Positions 27,578-60,920 of a stretch of DNA of 64,000 bases are shown piece by piece. This DNA is from Fervidobacterium pennivorans (GTDB taxonomy: Bacteria > Thermotogota > Thermotogae > Thermotogales > Fervidobacteriaceae): NCBI RefSeq assembly GCF_001644665.1, contig NZ_CP011393.1, positions 620,001-684,000 on the forward strand, read 5' to 3'. Position numbers and translations under genes: made by a program. Position 1 is the stretch's first letter, and every line of letters starts with the position of its first letter. The notes under the pieces were generated by a model. The model did no database searches. It was not told the DNA's origin and saw only the letters and a program-made list of their open reading frames with translations.

Positions 27578-28846
27578 TTGAGCGAAGGTATCAGCATGAA
27601 ACAACTTGAAGAAATGACAATGAAAGAATTGTATGAGCTAGCGAGAAAATACGACATTCCAAGATATACTAGTATGAGGAAACAGGATTTAATATTCGAA
27701 ATTCTCGAAGCGAAAGCAAAAGCTGAAGGATACTTTTTTGGAGAAGGTGTACTTGAAATAGCCCCGGATGGCTATGGCTTTTTGAGAAGTTTGGAAACGA
27801 TGCTTTCAGGACCAAAAGACATATATGTTTCACAGTCGCAAATTCGAAAATTTAATCTGAATACCGGAGACATTGTTTCTGGTGTTATCCGTCCTCCAAA
27901 AGAGGGTGAACGTTTCAACGCAATGATTAAGATTGAAGCAATAAATTATAAACCACCAGAATTTGCCAACGAACGTGTCAATTTTGAAAACCTTACTCCA
28001 GATTATCCAAAAGAGCGATATATACTTGAAACCAAACCTGACGTTTTCTCTACAAGGCTTATAGATTTATTTGCTCCAATAGGAAAAGGGCAACGAGGTA
28101 TGATTGTTGCACCACCAAAAGCTGGGAAAACAACAATCCTTAAAGAGATTGCGAATGGAATTGCGGAAAATCATCCGGATACATTCAGAATAGTTTTGCT
28201 AATTGATGAAAGACCGGAAGAGGTAACCGATATTAAAGAATCTGTTGATGCAAAAGTAATTGCCGCTCCCTTTGATATGCCATCTGAAAAGCAAATAAAA
28301 ATAGCTGAATTAACATTGGAAATGTGTAAGCGACTTGTGGAGTACGGCAATCACGTTGTTGTGCTTTTGGATAGTTTGACAAGGCTTGCAAGAGTCTACA
28401 ATGTAACGGTACCACCGAGTGGGAAATTATTAACTGGTGGTGTTGACCCTGCTGCGCTTCATAAACCTAAGCAATTCTTCGGAGCTGCCCGTAACACTCG
28501 TGAGGGTGGAAGTTTGACCATAATAGCAACCGCACTTGTTGAAACCGGTTCAAAAATGGACGAAGTAATATTCGAAGAATTCAAAGGAACAGGTAACATG
28601 GAGCTGGTTTTGTCAAGACAACTTGCAAACAAAAGGATATTCCCAGCAATTAACATTACACTTTCTGGAACTAGAAGAGAGGAACTGCTCATTGAGCAGT
28701 CCAACCTTAAGAAAATCTGGTTATTGAGACGTATGCTTGATTCCATGAGCGAAGAAGAAGGTCTGAAATTACTTCTAAACAAGCTTAAAGATACGAAAAC
28801 AAATGCAGAATTCTTAGCACTCATAGATGCTCAAAAAAATGTTTAG
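27578..28846 (+). CDS. rho: Transcription termination factor Rho (intact copy)
   Basis: 422 residues. The N-terminal Rho-N domain (MKQLEEMTMKELYELARKY) and the cold-shock-like RNA-binding domain (EGVLEIAPDGYGFLRS) precede the RecA-type motor. The motor has Walker A APPKAGKTT, Walker [10 protein letters not shown] and the Q-loop region. It starts at TTG with an AGGAGGTGG site. This is the complete copy; a 5'-truncated second rho gene lies at 60101-60920 and differs by many synonymous changes. Confidence 0.96.
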   Translation: MSEGISMKQLEEMTMKELYELARKYDIPRYTSMRKQDLIFEILEAKAKAEGYFFGEGVLEIAPDGYGFLRSLETMLSGPKDIYVSQSQIRKFNLNTGDIVSGVIRPPKEGERFNAMIKIEAINYKPPEFANERVNFENLTPDYPKERYILETKPDVFSTRLIDLFAPIGKGQRGMIVAPPKAGKTTILKEIANGIAENHPDTFRIVLLIDERPEEVTDIKESVDAKVIAAPFDMPSEKQIKIAELTLEMCKRLVEYGNHVVVLLDSLTRLARVYNVTVPPSGKLLTGGVDPAALHKPKQFFGAARNTREGGSLTIIATALVETGSKMDEVIFEEFKGTGNMELVLSRQLANKRIFPAINITLSGTRREELLIEQSNLKKIWLLRRMLDSMSEEEGLKLLLNKLKDTKTNAEFLALIDAQKNV

Positions 28847-52864: not shown

Positions 52865-53458
52865 CACGTCGTTATAGACTTTCGAGTTGATGAGATCGAT
52901 TTCGATGTGGTCAACGTGGATAACGTAACCGGTGGTTATCTGGCTATGAAATATCTTTACGACCACGGACACAGAGATATATTGTTTATCCCTGGTCCTG
53001 AGTTATCTCCAGCAGCGCAAGACAGGGAAAAAGGTATTCGCAAGTTCCTCGATAAAATATCAAAGAAAGATGAAGTAAAGGTGTACCTTGGTGAACACCG
53101 TGGGTACGACTCCGAGCATGGATGGGTTAGTGTAACACAACATCTAAACAAATACGGATTGAACTTCACCGCAATATTTGCCGTAAACGATTGGGCGGCT
53201 CTTGGCGCAATAGATGCACTGAAAGATTACGGTATAAAGGTACCTGACGAAGTATCGATAATAGGTTTCGACGATGCACCGTTTGCACAATACACAAACC
53301 CGAGATTAACAACTGTGATGCAACCACGCTGGGAGATGGGCACAACCGCAGCACAACTTTTGATAGAACGTATCCTTGACAAACATCTCAGATTACCAAG
53401 AAACGTTATATTACCCACAAAAATAATCGAACGAGAATCTGTGAAAAAGATAATGTGA
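52865..53458 (+). pseudogene. LacI-family regulator, 5'-truncated
   Basis: About 198 residues of the LacI/GalR effector domain remain: HVVIDFRVDEIDFDVVNVDN, GGYLAMKYLYDHGHRDILFI, AIFAVNDWAALGAIDAL, VPDEVSIIGFDDAPFAQYTNPRLTTV and the end. The HTH and hinge are lost at the IS21 boundary. The coding frame is intact up to the break, so the event may be recent. What sugar operon it ruled is not seen; the RiPP cassette is convergent to it. Confidence 0.8.
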
Positions 53459-53471
53459 TCATATGAAAACA

Positions 53472-53522
53472 AAACCATCCCCGGAAAGATTGTTTGATAG
53501 TCTCTGGGGATGGTTTATTTTT
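53472..53522. terminator. Bidirectional terminator between lacI fragment and RiPP transporter
   Basis: AAACCATCCCC (53472-53482) pairs with GGGGATGGTTT (53506-53516), with a 23-nt loop and ATTTTT after it. The A-rich left flank gives a U-run for the minus strand too. Confidence 0.75.
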
Positions 53523-53531
53523 GCAAACATT

Positions 53532-54347
53532 TTAAAACCCATGTACTCCTTTTTGGCGTGCTTTGTGTTGGAGTATAACGTAACTCAAGTAACCAGCGAT
53601 AATATAGAGAAAAGATATCACTGTGAAAATCATAAACTCACTTTTCAAATCAAAAATCGTTTTTGTACCCATCAGAAAATGTCTTGATAAATCTAAGCCC
53701 CACGTAAAAGGAAAGACGTACGAAACGTAACGTAAGAACTTCGGTAATACGGTCACTGGAAAGAACATCCCACCTATCAAAGGTGCAGCGTTTCCTACCA
53801 AGCTTACCAGTTCATCGGCGTCCTTTAAAAGTAACGTTAACCCAAAGAAAAGGAAGACAAATCCGAACGATGCAATAATGGAAATAACAAATGAACATAT
53901 AAAAAGTAACAAGTTTAGTGGTTTTATTGTCAATAAATTGCTCAAAAGTGCAAGTATTAATATAGGTACAGATTCTATGGTTACTCTTGAAATGCCGAAC
54001 ACACTCCAAGATAGAATGTACTCAAGTCCGCTCACTGGTGTTAAGAAAATTTCTTCAAATTGTCCTATTCTCATGTAACGTCTCAATGTGAAGATTACTC
54101 CCCACAGAATTTCAACGTAATTCCAGTAGGCAGCACCAAGCGCAAGGTAACCGAAGATATTCGTTGTATTCGATGTCCCATAGAAAAACTTTACGATATT
54201 CGATTTACTACCAAGATAGTACAAGAATAATAACGGAATTATTGTGAGCAATGGCACGAAGAACGAACCGTAAAAATCTATCTTGTACCTTTTAGCCGAA
54301 AGAAATTGTGCTTTAATCAAGTACAAACCTCTTACCATTCTTCCCAT
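53532..54347 (-). CDS. ABC-2 type permease, RiPP cassette (second)
   Basis: 271 residues with six hydrophobic segments in the ABC-2 arrangement (for example FYGSFFVPLLTIIPLLFLYYLG and FGFVFLFFGLTLLLKDADELVSLVGNAAPLIGGMFFPVTVLP). The LIGGMFFPVTVLPKFLRYVSYVFPFTW tract is the typical ABC-2 signature. It overlaps the first permease by 16 nt and ends the operon. The pair is likely to export the modified peptide or confer self-protection. Confidence 0.85.
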   Translation of the reverse strand: MGRMVRGLYLIKAQFLSAKRYKIDFYGSFFVPLLTIIPLLFLYYLGSKSNIVKFFYGTSNTTNIFGYLALGAAYWNYVEILWGVIFTLRRYMRIGQFEEIFLTPVSGLEYILSWSVFGISRVTIESVPILILALLSNLLTIKPLNLLLFICSFVISIIASFGFVFLFFGLTLLLKDADELVSLVGNAAPLIGGMFFPVTVLPKFLRYVSYVFPFTWGLDLSRHFLMGTKTIFDLKSEFMIFTVISFLYIIAGYLSYVILQHKARQKGVHGF

Positions 54348-55120
54348 TCTCCTTTTTGCCTTATCAAGTGTTCTGCTTTTTTCAACATCGCAACACCGAC
54401 AACAAGATACACTACACTAATGATACTCACTGTAAGTAAATTAAAGAAAAACTTCGTAACATCGTTGGAGTTTAAGATTACCCTTCCAGCTTCGATTAAA
54501 TACGTTAATGGCAGTAAGTAACTTGCTATACGAATATAGAACGGGAAATTGCTAACAGGATTTACCATACCAGATAGAAGACCTATTCCGTACTGAATCG
54601 AATAATTTAAAGTTCCGATGCGTTTGTACAGAAGATTCAAACCAGCAAAAAATATCGAAAAGAAAGTAATATAAAGCCCACTCACAAGTAACAATAAAAA
54701 GAAATAGAACGATAAATAAATATCTATGCCAAGCAACCAAAAAAACAAGAGTGTGAAAAGTGTTATGTACAAATTCATAATGAATGTATCAATTGCTTTT
54801 GAAAATAAAAATGCAACTGTGGAAATCGGTGATAAAACAATTGTTACAAGTGTTCCTTCCATACGTTCTTCCGAAAAGCCATCACCAACACCGAAAAAGT
54901 ATTGATTCAACCAATACCAAAGGAGTGTACCAATAAGTATGTTGTTTACTATATCTTGCTGAGTTGTTATCTTTGCACTGAAAACGTACGGTGCAATCAT
55001 AAAAAATGGAGTGAGCGCCATATTTATCCAGACAAATTTGTACTTCCTACGCACTTTCAAGTCTTTCATCGCTAAGATAAACACACTTTTTAAAGTATCC
55101 AGCACGTTCTTCACCTTCAT
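54332..55120 (-). CDS. ABC-2 type permease, RiPP cassette (first)
   Basis: 262 residues, six hydrophobic helices, with GLLSGMVNPVSNFPFYIRIASYLLPLTYLIEA as the ABC-2 signature and GDGFSEERMEGTLVTIVLSPIS in the cytoplasmic loop. It is distinct in sequence from the second permease, so a heterodimer with the shared ATPase is expected. It overlaps the ATPase stop by 4 nt. Confidence 0.85.
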   Translation of the reverse strand: MKVKNVLDTLKSVFILAMKDLKVRRKYKFVWINMALTPFFMIAPYVFSAKITTQQDIVNNILIGTLLWYWLNQYFFGVGDGFSEERMEGTLVTIVLSPISTVAFLFSKAIDTFIMNLYITLFTLLFFWLLGIDIYLSFYFFLLLLVSGLYITFFSIFFAGLNLLYKRIGTLNYSIQYGIGLLSGMVNPVSNFPFYIRIASYLLPLTYLIEAGRVILNSNDVTKFFFNLLTVSIISVVYLVVGVAMLKKAEHLIRQKGEWEEW

Positions 55121-55854
55121 TCGTTTTCAGCATATTCGGAAGATTGCAAAAAGAGTTCAGAAAGCTGGTTGTAAACATCTTTACTTGCGAAAATATCACC
55201 GTACCTTGAAATAAGCTCAATTTTTCCATTTTTCAGAAGTACTATCTTTGCATCCTCACTCAAATTGTGCAGTATGTGACTTACCATAACGACAGTCACA
55301 CCATCTTTGCTCGACTTTTCTAAAAAAGAATTAACCTGAATGACGGCGTTAACATCGAGACCATTCAAAATCTCATCTATGAAGAGAATCTTTGGTTGAT
55401 GAATTAAAGCTTTACAAAGTAACAATTTCTTACGCATTCCAGTTGAATAATCTTCAACGAGCTTATCTTTGTCATCGTATAAACCAAAAAAGTTAAGTAA
55501 CTCTTCGGCACGTTCTATTCGCTTCTTTTTTGGAACATTGTAAATTCCACCGAATATGTCAAGGTTTTCCCAAGCCGTTAGCTTCCAATATAAACTTCTT
55601 TCGTTAGCAAGCACAACACCGATATACCTTGCGAGTTTTTTCCAGTGCTTTTTTACGTCAAAACCTAAGATGTTCACTTCACCTTCATCTGGTAAAAGTA
55701 AACCTACCATGATTCGCAAAAGCGTACTCTTACCAGCGCCGTTTGGACCTACCAATACGGTGAATTCACCTTCTGAAATGTTCAAACTTACATTTTCAAG
55801 CACTCTTTGGTCTCCAAAGGATTTACTAACACCTTTCAATAAAACAAGACTCAA
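55117..55854 (-). CDS. ABC transporter ATPase, RiPP cassette
   Basis: 245 residues. Walker A VGPNGAGKSTLLRI, signature YSTGMRKKLLLCKAL, Walker B ILFIDEILNGLD and the H-loop His in VSHILHNL. No C39 peptidase domain is fused, so leader removal, if any, needs another protease. Its start overlaps the maturase stop by 4 nt (ATGA), which ties transporter and maturase into one translation unit. Confidence 0.92.
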   Translation of the reverse strand: MSLVLLKGVSKSFGDQRVLENVSLNISEGEFTVLVGPNGAGKSTLLRIMVGLLLPDEGEVNILGFDVKKHWKKLARYIGVVLANERSLYWKLTAWENLDIFGGIYNVPKKKRIERAEELLNFFGLYDDKDKLVEDYSTGMRKKLLLCKALIHQPKILFIDEILNGLDVNAVIQVNSFLEKSSKDGVTVVMVSHILHNLSEDAKIVLLKNGKIELISRYGDIFASKDVYNQLSELFLQSSEYAENE

Positions 55855-57098
55855 GGAACGATCACCCTTTCTTGATTTAATACATATAATTCAATTAAAT
55901 CTGAACTATACAATGTTTCTAAAAATTCTTTCCAACAATCTTTCGGAGTTTGCTTTAAAAATGAGTTGTATTTACAGCCACCATCACAAATTGGAAGAAA
56001 AGTACAACTCATACAAGTTTTATCATGAGAAATGGATTCTAAGAAATTAGCATATTTTTTAATGAATATCTCTTCGTTAGACATTATCTCTTCGTAATTT
56101 GCGATTTTGAAATTACTTACTCCAATTCCAGAAATACAATTGTATACATCACCATTCGGAGCTAAGACAAGGTCGGATTCTTTTTTGTATGTGCAAGGCC
56201 AAACATTTAGAAAATCGATGATCCTAAAGCCAAAATTAATCACAGATTTGACTGCTTCAACGTATTTTTCGGCGTACTCTTTTTGACAAATATTGATTCC
56301 TTTTAATGATAATCCACCATTTTCTGGATTCGTTAATAAACCAATATTAAAAATAACCCTTTCTGATAATACTTTCACTCCGAATATCTCAACGAGCTCG
56401 TCTAGCATCTTCTTGTAATAAAAATTAGAGTTTGTCTCATCTAAAACGGTATGAATCACCACAGTTGAATTTGAATAACAAAATATTTTACTCATGTTAT
56501 CCATTATTCTGTCCCAACTACTTGCCCCATCTTTTCGTGGACGTCTTGCATTATGGAGCTCTCTTGGACCATCTAATGTCAACTGAATAACTCCAAATTT
56601 TCTGTGGTTTAATATTGAAAACAAATCATCAAAAACAAAATTTCCATTTGATATTATATTAAACTGTTTAAACTTTTCTTCAGATTCAATTTGTTCAAGA
56701 ACCTGCTGCAAATAATCAATTTTTAGCGAAGGTTCCCCGCCAAAAAATGTAATAATAAATGATTTTGGATTGAAGATACTGAGAAGTTTTCTGTAAAGTT
56801 CCACTTTCTTCACAGTTTCAATTTCCAGTTGGGTTTTGTCTATTTTTGGTCCATTTTGCATGCAATATACACAACTTAAATTACAATCATAGGTAATTGC
56901 ATCTGTTATTGACAAAGTATCGTTTGAATATTTTATCTTATTATTAATATAATTCATTAATGCAATTCTTTCATCTGAATCATAACTTTCGAATTTTGTG
57001 TTCAATGAGTTCTTATTTACTATCTTAATTTCACGCATTAAAAGATCATAATATATTATCTTATCATATTTATCAATTTTTACAACAAATCTACTCAT
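55851..57098 (-). CDS. SPASM-domain radical SAM peptide maturase
   Basis: 415 residues. The radical SAM motif is CNLSCVYC near residue 70. A PqqE-like barrel (FFGGEPSLK, FNIISNGNF, IQLTLDGPRELHNARRP) follows. The C-terminal SPASM domain holds CISG, then CMSCTFLPICDGGC and a late Cys, enough for two auxiliary Fe-S clusters. Such enzymes install thioether or C-C crosslinks, or epimerise residues, in ribosomal peptides. It has a GGGAGGA ribosome site. A 32-residue candidate substrate is encoded 108 nt upstream. Very AT-rich, unlike the nfn genes, which suggests transfer. Confidence 0.92.
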   Translation of the reverse strand: MSRFVVKIDKYDKIIYYDLLMREIKIVNKNSLNTKFESYDSDERIALMNYINNKIKYSNDTLSITDAITYDCNLSCVYCMQNGPKIDKTQLEIETVKKVELYRKLLSIFNPKSFIITFFGGEPSLKIDYLQQVLEQIESEEKFKQFNIISNGNFVFDDLFSILNHRKFGVIQLTLDGPRELHNARRPRKDGASSWDRIMDNMSKIFCYSNSTVVIHTVLDETNSNFYYKKMLDELVEIFGVKVLSERVIFNIGLLTNPENGGLSLKGINICQKEYAEKYVEAVKSVINFGFRIIDFLNVWPCTYKKESDLVLAPNGDVYNCISGIGVSNFKIANYEEIMSNEEIFIKKYANFLESISHDKTCMSCTFLPICDGGCKYNSFLKQTPKDCWKEFLETLYSSDLIELYVLNQERVIVP

Positions 57099-57173
57099 TT
57101 CGGTTCCTCCCTATTTCGAATTTCAGTTATTTATTCTGAAATTCAAGTCTTCTAATTCGATCCAATAAAATAT

Positions 57174-57187
57174 TAGACCCGGGTCTA
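57174..57187 (-). promoter_or_regulatory. 14-bp palindrome between precursor and maturase genes
   Basis: TAGACCCGGGTCTA is perfectly symmetric, and an AT-rich tail (ATATTTTATT) follows on the minus strand. It lies 19 nt after the precursor stop. It could be a weak terminator or processing site that yields more precursor mRNA than maturase mRNA. Confidence 0.4.
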
Positions 57188-57206
57188 GTAACATTAAACC
57201 ATTAGG

Positions 57207-57305
57207 TTATTTTTTACTAATCTCAATGCTCGCACATCTTTGACTTCTATTTATACAACCACCAAGTGGAACATTACCATTGATTAATCTTTTCAAAATA
57301 TTCAT
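57207..57305 (-). CDS. Candidate RiPP precursor peptide (32 residues, two Cys)
   Basis: Read on the minus strand: MNILKRLINGNVPLGG, then CINRSQRCASIEISKK, then TAA. A strong AAGGAGG site lies 8 nt before the ATG. Features typical of a RiPP precursor are the tiny size, a basic/hydrophobic leader, a Gly-Gly motif placed just before the first Cys, and a hydrophilic core with Cys17 and Cys24 six residues apart. It lies directly upstream of a SPASM maturase and ABC exporter on the same strand. It could become a sactipeptide, ranthipeptide or epimerised peptide; sequence alone does not decide. No known precursor family is recognised. Confidence 0.75.
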   Translation of the reverse strand: MNILKRLINGNVPLGGCINRSQRCASIEISKK

Positions 57306-57349
57306 CTGTTATACCTCCTTGTAAGAATCAATAATTTTTAACACGATTT

Positions 57350-57407
57350 ACTCTGCGCAGAGTTATTTTAATTATATCAAAAAAAAAAAAAAAAAAAAAA
57401 AAGTCAA
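57350..57407 (-). promoter_or_regulatory. RiPP promoter with 24-nt poly-T spacer and palindromic operator
   Basis: On the minus strand TTGACT (57407-57402) and TATAAT (57376-57371) are separated by 25 nt, of which 23 are T (part of a run of 24). The perfect 14-bp palindrome ACTCTGCGCAGAGT (57363-57350) lies about where transcription would start. The spacer is 8 nt longer than optimal, so slippage in the run could tune the promoter. Confidence 0.5.
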
Positions 57408-57455
57408 TACTGTAACACCATATTCGTTGAATAGAAATAAAATCACCTATAAGAT

Positions 57456-57497
57456 ATAAAAAATCCCCCGACGAAGTTAAATGTGTTTCCGGGGGAT
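57456..57497 (-). terminator. Intrinsic terminator of the nfn operon
   Basis: ATCCCCCG and CGGGGGAT form an 8-bp stem (57463-57470/57490-57497) with TTTTTT after it on the minus strand. It insulates the nfn genes from the RiPP cassette, which is transcribed in the same direction. Confidence 0.85.
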
Positions 57498-57510
57498 GTT
57501 CATTTCTCAA

Positions 57511-57783
57511 TTACTTTTGCCTTTGAAATTTTTCCGCACTGATGGTGACGATGTATTTGTTGCCATCAACTTCAACTTGGTAATTTATCGAAAAAGTATC
57601 AGGTAGGTTTTTCAAAACCGTGTCATCGATCGTTTCCCAAAAGATATTTTCCGCTTTTAATTGGGCTTTCTCTTGCCTTAGTGCTTCTTCAAGCATGTTT
57701 CTTTGCATGGGGATAGTTGATAAGACTATTGCAACGAGTATTAGAAGAACAATTATCGCAGATAGTATTTCGATGTAAATCAC
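57511..57783 (-). CDS. Small membrane-anchored protein, pilin-like N-terminus
   Basis: 90 residues. MIYIEILSAIIVLLILVAIV followed by a helical, polar stretch (RNMLEEALRQEKAQLKAEN) resembles a pseudopilin N-terminal helix with its Glu, but the Gly cleavage site before it is missing. The C-terminal half has a short beta domain (SINYQVEVDGNKYIVTI). It follows nfnB by 13 nt and ends the operon. Function unknown. Confidence 0.55.
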   Translation of the reverse strand: MIYIEILSAIIVLLILVAIVLSTIPMQRNMLEEALRQEKAQLKAENIFWETIDDTVLKNLPDTFSINYQVEVDGNKYIVTISAEKFQRQK

Positions 57784-57796
57784 ATCATCTTCACCT

Positions 57797-60054
<2,258 letters not shown>

Positions 60055-60100
60055 TGATAATTCCTCCTATACTTAGGTGAGCAAAGAAAAAAATGTATTG

Positions 60101-60920
60101 TTATACTGTTTTCTGGGCGTCTATTAAAGCTAAGAACTCTTCGTTCGATTTCGTTTCTTTCAATTTTGAAAGTATGAGTTTGAGACCTTCTTCTTCAGAC
60201 ATAGAGCTCAACATACGCCTAAGGATCCACACTTTCTTCAATTCGTTTTGCCCAATCAATAATTCTTCTTTTCTTGTACCCGAAAGTGCAAGATTGATGG
60301 CTGGGAAAATCCTTTTGTTAGCAAGCTGTCTTGAAAGCACAAGTTCCATATTACCTGTACCTTTGAATTCTTCAAATATCACTTCATCCATCTTCGATCC
60401 AGTCTCTATGAGTGCGGTTGCGATGATGGTTAAACTTCCACCTTCTCTTGTGTTTCTTGCAGCACCGAAGAAATGTTTGGGTTTGTAAAGTGCAGCCGGA
60501 TCAACACCACCAGTCAACAGTTTACCACTTGGTGGAACGGTTATGTTATAAACCCTTCCAAGTCGTGTAAGACTATCAAGGAGCACAACAACGTGATTTC
60601 CATATTCAACAAGTCTTTTGCACATTTCAAGCGTAAGTTCAGCAATTTTTATCTGCTTATCGGAAGGCATATCAAACGGGGCTGCTATAACCTTTGCATC
60701 TACCGATTCTTTGATATCTGTAACTTCTTCAGGTCGTTCATCGATGAGTAATACGATTCTAATTGTATCAGGATGGTTAGTTGCAATTCCGTTGGCAATT
60801 TCTTTGAGTATCGTGGTCTTACCGGTCTTCGGTGGAGCGACGATCATTCCCCTTTGTCCTTTACCTATCGGTGTGAACAAGTCAATCAACCTTTGGTGGT
60901 AAACCTTTCTTGATATATTT
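60101..60920 (-). pseudogene. Second rho gene, 5'-truncated by IS110
   Basis: The frame gives the C-terminal motor of Rho from about [15 protein letters not shown] to the end (Walker [25 protein letters not shown]). The Rho-N and RNA-binding domains are missing. Protein identity to the intact Rho looks very high, but the DNA differs at many third positions, so this is not a fresh duplicate. The break lies at the IS110 end near 60921-60928. Without RNA-binding it could not terminate normally, though it might still join hexamers. Confidence 0.85.

Follow-up and report, generated by a model that had tools for sequence, protein, structure and literature searches.

The 'novel peptide TM1316' of T. 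maritima was reportedly described by Frock et al. in 2013 (doi 10.1128/AEM.01627-13) and, going by the title of that work, is induced in stationary phase; a description of the chemistry of its product was not found in the literature citing the 2013 paper. Several better characterized systems have components in common with the locus analyzed here. The ranthipeptide synthases (CteB/SCIFF, PapB) have the same SPASM radical SAM architecture as its maturase, and in sactipeptide systems (streptosactin, suisactin; the GGG and QMP streptococcal subfamilies) a short Cys-bearing peptide is likewise combined with a single radical SAM enzyme. Streptococcal systems of the streptosactin/suisactin type are quorum-controlled, and Rgg/SHP regulation is found at streptococcal RiPP loci (PMC13361665). 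The motif of the precursor peptide considered below falls outside the 16 streptococcal subfamily motifs listed there (PMC13361665).

The locus is a minus-strand cassette in a 64-kb stretch of Fervidobacterium pennivorans DNA, hereafter the window. Its features, and those that surround it, are as follows.

57207..57305, minus strand: precursor peptide gene, 32 aa, MNILKRLINGNVPLGGCINRSQRCASIEISKK (ORF reading, profile, selection).
55851..57098, minus strand: radical SAM/SPASM maturase, 415 aa (Pfam, NCBIfam, ortholog alignment).
55117..55854, minus strand: ABC ATPase with a TTG start; best match DrrA-like, under the subfamily cut-off (Pfam, NCBIfam).
54332..55120, minus strand: ABC-2 permease 1 (Pfam ABC2_membrane).
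53532..54347, minus strand: ABC-2 permease 2 (Pfam ABC2_membrane).
57313..57320, minus strand: perfect ribosome binding site AAGGAGGT, 7 nt 5' of the precursor ATG (read directly).
57371..57407, minus strand: promoter TTGAC-T24-GATATAAT, with -35 box TTGACT at 57407-57402, extended -10 box TGATATAAT at 57379-57371 and a spacer of 25 nt.
57379..57402, minus strand: poly-T tract of 24 T, the longest homopolymer in the genome.
57350..57363, no strand: perfect palindrome ACTCTGCGCAGAGT, just past the -10 box and near the expected 5' end of the transcript.
57174..57187, no strand: perfect palindrome TAGACCCGGGTCTA, between the precursor and maturase genes.
57458..57497, minus strand: intrinsic terminator of the gene upstream of the cassette, a hairpin followed by T6.
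53466..53525, minus strand: strong terminator hairpin past permease 2 (-21.1 kcal/mol, z -4.9).
52867..60905, no strand: segment of about 8 kb, shared at 99.9% identity with three further genomes of Fervidobacterium (G004, G006, G007).

The five minus-strand ORFs of the original prediction, a peptide, a SPASM protein, an ATPase and two permeases, lie where it had placed them; the strong ribosome site ascribed to the tiny peptide gene is AAGGAGGT at 57320-57313, and the last four ORFs overlap as described, by 4, 4 and 16 nt in the order maturase, ATPase, permease 1, permease 2. Pfam matches were obtained for the maturase (Radical_SAM, 6.6e-13), the ATPase (ABC_tran, 6e-30) and both permeases (ABC2_membrane). 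The maturase scores above the cut-off of the SPASM model TIGR04085 and under that of the Pfam SPASM model. Because terminators occur before the promoter and after permease 2, the cassette looks like a single transcription unit.

The precursor has no matching family in Pfam or NCBIfam, as predicted, and its relatives were sought by two routes. A maturase search of 60 relatives returned copies at 98-100% identity in three congeners, and orthologs at 44-46% identity in G029, G031 and G033, which belong to one genus, and in G049. A precursor profile run against 103 genomes of the phylum matched 11 genomes at E <1e-16, with matches in other Thermotogota at 1e-17 to 1e-22; through it one more family, represented by G087, G088 and G090, joined the set. 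Each precursor match in other Thermotogota sits just 5' of an orthologous maturase; these relatives, beside maturases that are 42-46% identical, occur in three other families of the phylum. The original prediction had turned on whether homologous maturases carry a short ORF upstream, and one is present in every ortholog locus. The order precursor-maturase-ATPase-permease-permease is constant wherever the locus is complete (G031, G049, G087, G088); in G090 the contig stops inside the maturase. G044 and G055 gave weak precursor matches (E 0.003-0.01), but these fall within long ORFs and we attribute them to chance. No precursor match was found in viral contigs and plasmids, and a search of genome contigs returned only one locus, in metagenome-assembled Thermotogae. 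The precursors of the relatives read as follows.

G031: MNVLKRIANHSIPLGGCTNRSQRCAVVTP.
G049, with a TTG start: MNVLKRIVSRSIPLGGCTNRSQRCAVITP.
G088: MNILKRIVSGKIPLGGCTNRSQRCADLTQ.
G090 and G087, identical over the first 25 codons: MNILKRIISGKMPLGGCTNRSQRCADLTQ.

Residues 13-25 form an invariant core, PLGGC[T/I]NRSQRCA, followed by a tail that is variable past Ala25. The peptide has two cysteines, C17 and C24, both invariant; the GG directly before the first and the spacing of seven residues to the second are as originally described, and N19, R20, S21, Q22 and R23 equal the cysteines in invariance. In pairwise comparisons among the divergent genes, the core codons carry 3-7 synonymous changes in 8.7 sites and 0-2 nonsynonymous changes in 30. 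The 32-residue ORF is a genuine gene and its core is under strong purifying selection. By synteny and co-conservation the peptide would be the obvious substrate of the maturase.

In four of the five loci the precursor gene lies between perfect palindromes rich in GC, each with p of 0.009 or less against base shuffles. They measure 14 and 14 nt in the window (at -58 and +20), 16 and 18 nt in G031, 12 and 16 nt in G088, and 10 and 16 nt in G087; in G049 they are only short (8 nt) or imperfect. Perfect palindromes that reach 12 nt and contain 6 or more G+C occur seven times in the whole 64 kb, and two of these are the ones flanking the precursor gene. Since the dyad is kept while the sequences differ between loci, the palindromes probably act as a structure or a binding site. 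Such elements on both sides of the ORF in most relatives would also suit a non-coding leader or attenuator, with the enzyme acting on another target, but we consider this highly improbable: the amino acids are under strong purifying selection, which we regard as already refuting it, and the ORF has a good ribosome site and a conserved start. The palindromes of the window are weak as RNA hairpins.

The radical SAM motif CX3CX2C of the maturase (C72/C76/C79) and its SPASM pattern, C302-x13-G316-x4-C321 and C362-x2-C365-x5-C371-x3-C375 followed by C388, are invariant in six orthologs. As the SPASM cysteine set is invariant, the enzyme is predicted to hold two auxiliary iron-sulfur clusters in addition to one radical-SAM cluster. 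No equivalog cut-off of NCBIfam was reached. The top model, CefB (153 of 600 bits), matches all six maturase orthologs, and the best models are those of peptide maturases: CefB, Clo7bot, geopeptide and PapB. Among solved structures, 5wgg (5.5e-19), the ranthipeptide synthase CteB, is closest in sequence. The maturase nevertheless scores far under the ranthipeptide cut-offs (83 vs 425 bits for SCIFF, TIGR03974; 88.5 vs 340 bits for PapB, NF047865), and its precursor has two cysteines instead of six and no repeated Cys-X3-Asp. A PqqD-like N-terminal recognition domain (RRE) gave no Pfam match in the maturase. The N-terminal region is about 25 residues shorter in the window maturase than in the orthologs, which could make this enzyme less active. 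An AlphaFold model of the maturase built from three sequences had a mean pLDDT of 52, too poor for fold comparison. A defence function was considered and rejected, as the viperin-like matches were weak and came from the radical SAM domain.

Taken at the level of sequence, the original reading of a RiPP cassette in Thermotogota, in which a genuine precursor is accompanied by a SPASM maturase and an ABC exporter dedicated to it, holds up, and the cassette very probably makes, modifies and exports a tiny peptide. Our preferred account, to which we assign a probability of roughly 0.55, is that of a TM1316-family RiPP with one or more thioethers at Cys17/Cys24. The precursor would be translated from its own strong ribosome site, and the SPASM enzyme would most likely form one or two thioether bonds in the core, with Cys17 and Cys24 as donors and backbone or side-chain carbons as acceptors. 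A general protease rather than a C39 peptidase would then trim the product, a DrrAB-type ABC exporter would secrete it and perhaps also serve self-protection, and the secreted peptide may act as a signal or an antagonist. The near-invariant core is unusual for a bacteriocin and counts against this explanation.

The GG motif suggested a peptidase site of the GG-leader type. This idea was not supported: a search for C39 peptidases came up empty in the cluster, the window genome and four related genomes, whereas the control search gave matches in 8 of 14 well-known genomes. Another protease would therefore act, or the leader is not cleaved at GG.

The type of crosslink is not readable from sequence, since SPASM maturases vary in the bond that they make; C-C, ether and Arg-Tyr bonds are also formed by this enzyme class (PMC13361665, PMC8326336). 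A thioether is favored because the nearest structure and several of the top family models are thioether-forming and both precursor cysteines are invariant. The same observations weigh against a rather unlikely variant in which the same cassette performs other chemistry, either a C-C or C-N crosslink at Arg, Asn or Gln of NRSQR or an isobaric D-residue, and in which the cysteines serve only for a disulfide or cluster binding. Residues N19 to R23 match the cysteines in invariance, as this variant would have it, and streptococcal relatives of the enzyme class make Lys-Trp, Arg-Tyr and ether bonds (PMC13361665).

The almost constant core, kept across families in which maturase identity is only 42-46%, is also what would be expected of a fixed small-molecule scaffold. 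The peptide might on that ground be matured into a small cofactor with a redox or metal-binding role, following the logic of PQQ or mycofactocin, and neither a secreted weapon nor a signal. We regard this as quite improbable, because the dedicated ABC exporter is conserved, the unit has no tailoring or peptidase genes, and the cassette is patchy, mobile and missing from many relatives.

The thioether-forming RiPP cassette preferred here does not appear to be a stand-alone new class, as had been suggested, because the family occurs in at least four Thermotogota families and the published TM1316 locus is almost certainly among its members. The latter assignment concerns the locus in G031, which we take to be T. 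maritima MSB8; the G031 precursor is followed, about 7.5 kb downstream, by a HicAB-like pair, read from translations, and such a pair is reported for MSB8. On the present sequence evidence the TM1316 family is a known one, scattered in the phylum. The TM1316 locus has the same five-gene order as the window cassette, and its precursor MNVLKRIANHSIPLGGCTNRSQRCAVVTP has the same core apart from one Ile/Thr difference. In T. maritima the precursor is preceded by a small ORF, whose start resembles a signal peptide, and by a decayed copy of a regulator gene; the window has neither, and its promoter carries a T-run.

Small ORFs with a hydrophobic start lie 5' of the precursor in G031, G049 and G087, and next to them a divergent TPR-type gene occurs in G031, in decayed form, and in G087. 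Beside TM1316 this gene is fragmented and interrupted by stops. In T. maritima an intact paralogue has a TPR_12 domain and a Cro/C1 HTH, a layout that by analogy resembles RRNPP regulators, as in the streptococcal Rgg/SHP RiPP loci; the G087 protein has no Pfam match and is only distantly similar. As in the Rgg/SHP-controlled streptococcal RaS-RiPPs (PMC13361665), Thermotogota relatives have a TPR protein and a small peptide gene with a hydrophobic start beside the RiPP genes, but neither is present in the window cassette. No TPR-HTH regulator or signal-peptide gene was found in the stretch upstream of the window precursor. Neither the window genome nor G006 or G007 yielded a regulator homologue; one is present in G004, at another site.

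Other peptide systems were encountered in these relatives. The regulator family is expanded, with 5 matches in G031 and 12 in G087 (e.g. L048:15311-16918), some adjoining small peptide genes, and RRNPP-type peptide signalling in Thermotogota is possible. Several RiPP systems of the radical SAM kind seem to exist in T. maritima: a paralogous SPASM enzyme of G031 is preceded by a tandem array of three genes for Cys-rich peptides that begin MEFLN.. (L025:785-1283), L012 holds a similar gene, and relatives with an MxWI.. start occur in L009. On the contig that carries the G049 cassette, a candidate precursor, MQGVKVVRKPKSVPIAPAGNGTCNGNCNCVL, precedes a second SPASM enzyme (L052:2602-2697).

The Fervidobacterium copies of the promoter differ in the length of the T-tract, which is 24 in the window, 19 in G006, 17 in G007 and 12 in both G004 copies, giving -35/-10 spacers of 25, 20, 18, 13 and 13 nt, respectively, in a comparison that draws on one genome per species and in which homopolymer sequencing error is possible. 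In the alignment of the shared segment, only two substitutions and a one-base insertion in G004 differ besides the tract. The tract of G006 is its sole T run of 12 or more. The 2.06-Mb window genome has just one other run that reaches 14 T's; this run (L055, approximately 1498-1511; G000:C1:1466097) lies about 45 nt before a ruvC-like ORF and is possibly also a variable tract. The promoter was missing from a consensus scan because that scan permits spacers of 16-18 nt only. The poly-T tract was rejected as the U-tract of a terminator, as the upstream hairpin has its own T6 and stops about 55 nt upstream.

Slippage between the -35 and -10 boxes is a phase-variation mechanism known elsewhere, and the tract may be a phase switch of the cassette. 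Tract length would set promoter strength, and of spacers of 25, 20, 18 and 13 nt only 18 would be near the optimum; the extended -10 box TGATATAAT could keep the promoter active at any tract length. The T-run may, speculatively, have taken the place of the TPR regulator. As a tentative proposal, which we hold at somewhat below even odds, slippage in the tract would be a phase switch that brings the -35 and -10 boxes into or out of register and thereby tunes the RiPP cassette up or down in single cells, in place of the peptide-sensing TPR regulator found with the family elsewhere, and on a mobile island spreading among thermophiles. No earlier description of a length-variable promoter on such a cassette was found.

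The mobility of this island is evident from the surrounding DNA. The shared 8-kb segment contains a 5'-truncated lacI, the cassette, a 90-aa ORF, gltD/gltA-like genes and a truncated rho. Core DNA of the window genome (6-kb sample) is 97% identical to G004, which is probably F. pennivorans DSM 9078, 74-78% to G006, probably F. nodosum Rt17-B1, and 74% to G007; G006 and G007 are 74-78% identical to each other in their core (4.5-kb sample). Since the segment is 99.9% identical while the core is only about 75% identical (G006, G007), sequence comparison indicates that the cassette was recently transferred horizontally between Fervidobacterium species. The DNA common to G006 and G007 extends over at least 16.7 kb at 99.8% identity, with serine-recombinase-like ORFs beside a truncated rho. 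In the window, transposase-like ORFs (names read from sequence) cut the segment on both sides and the start of the LacI gene is lost. Both locus copies of G004 (L046:6416-7661 and L047:8512) lack an intact maturase: one has a one-base insertion in this gene, and the other stops just before its start and adjoins a more extended part of the foreign rho region. The truncated foreign rho of the window (60101-60889) occurs besides the native rho (28058-28843), with 90% protein identity over the common part. The 90-aa ORF (57511-57783), between the gltD-like gene and the cassette, has a pilin-like hydrophobic start and a weak ComGE match (E 0.11).

This analysis ties TM1316, an orphan peptide for a decade, to a conserved RiPP family that is scattered in the phylum and has an almost frozen core. 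The thermostable enzyme-substrate pair makes the chemistry of the family directly testable. The four Fervidobacterium copies, near-identical over 8 kb and differing mainly in promoter spacer length, are a natural experiment, and if the proposed switch is real it would represent a phase-variable RiPP in a thermophilic phylum.
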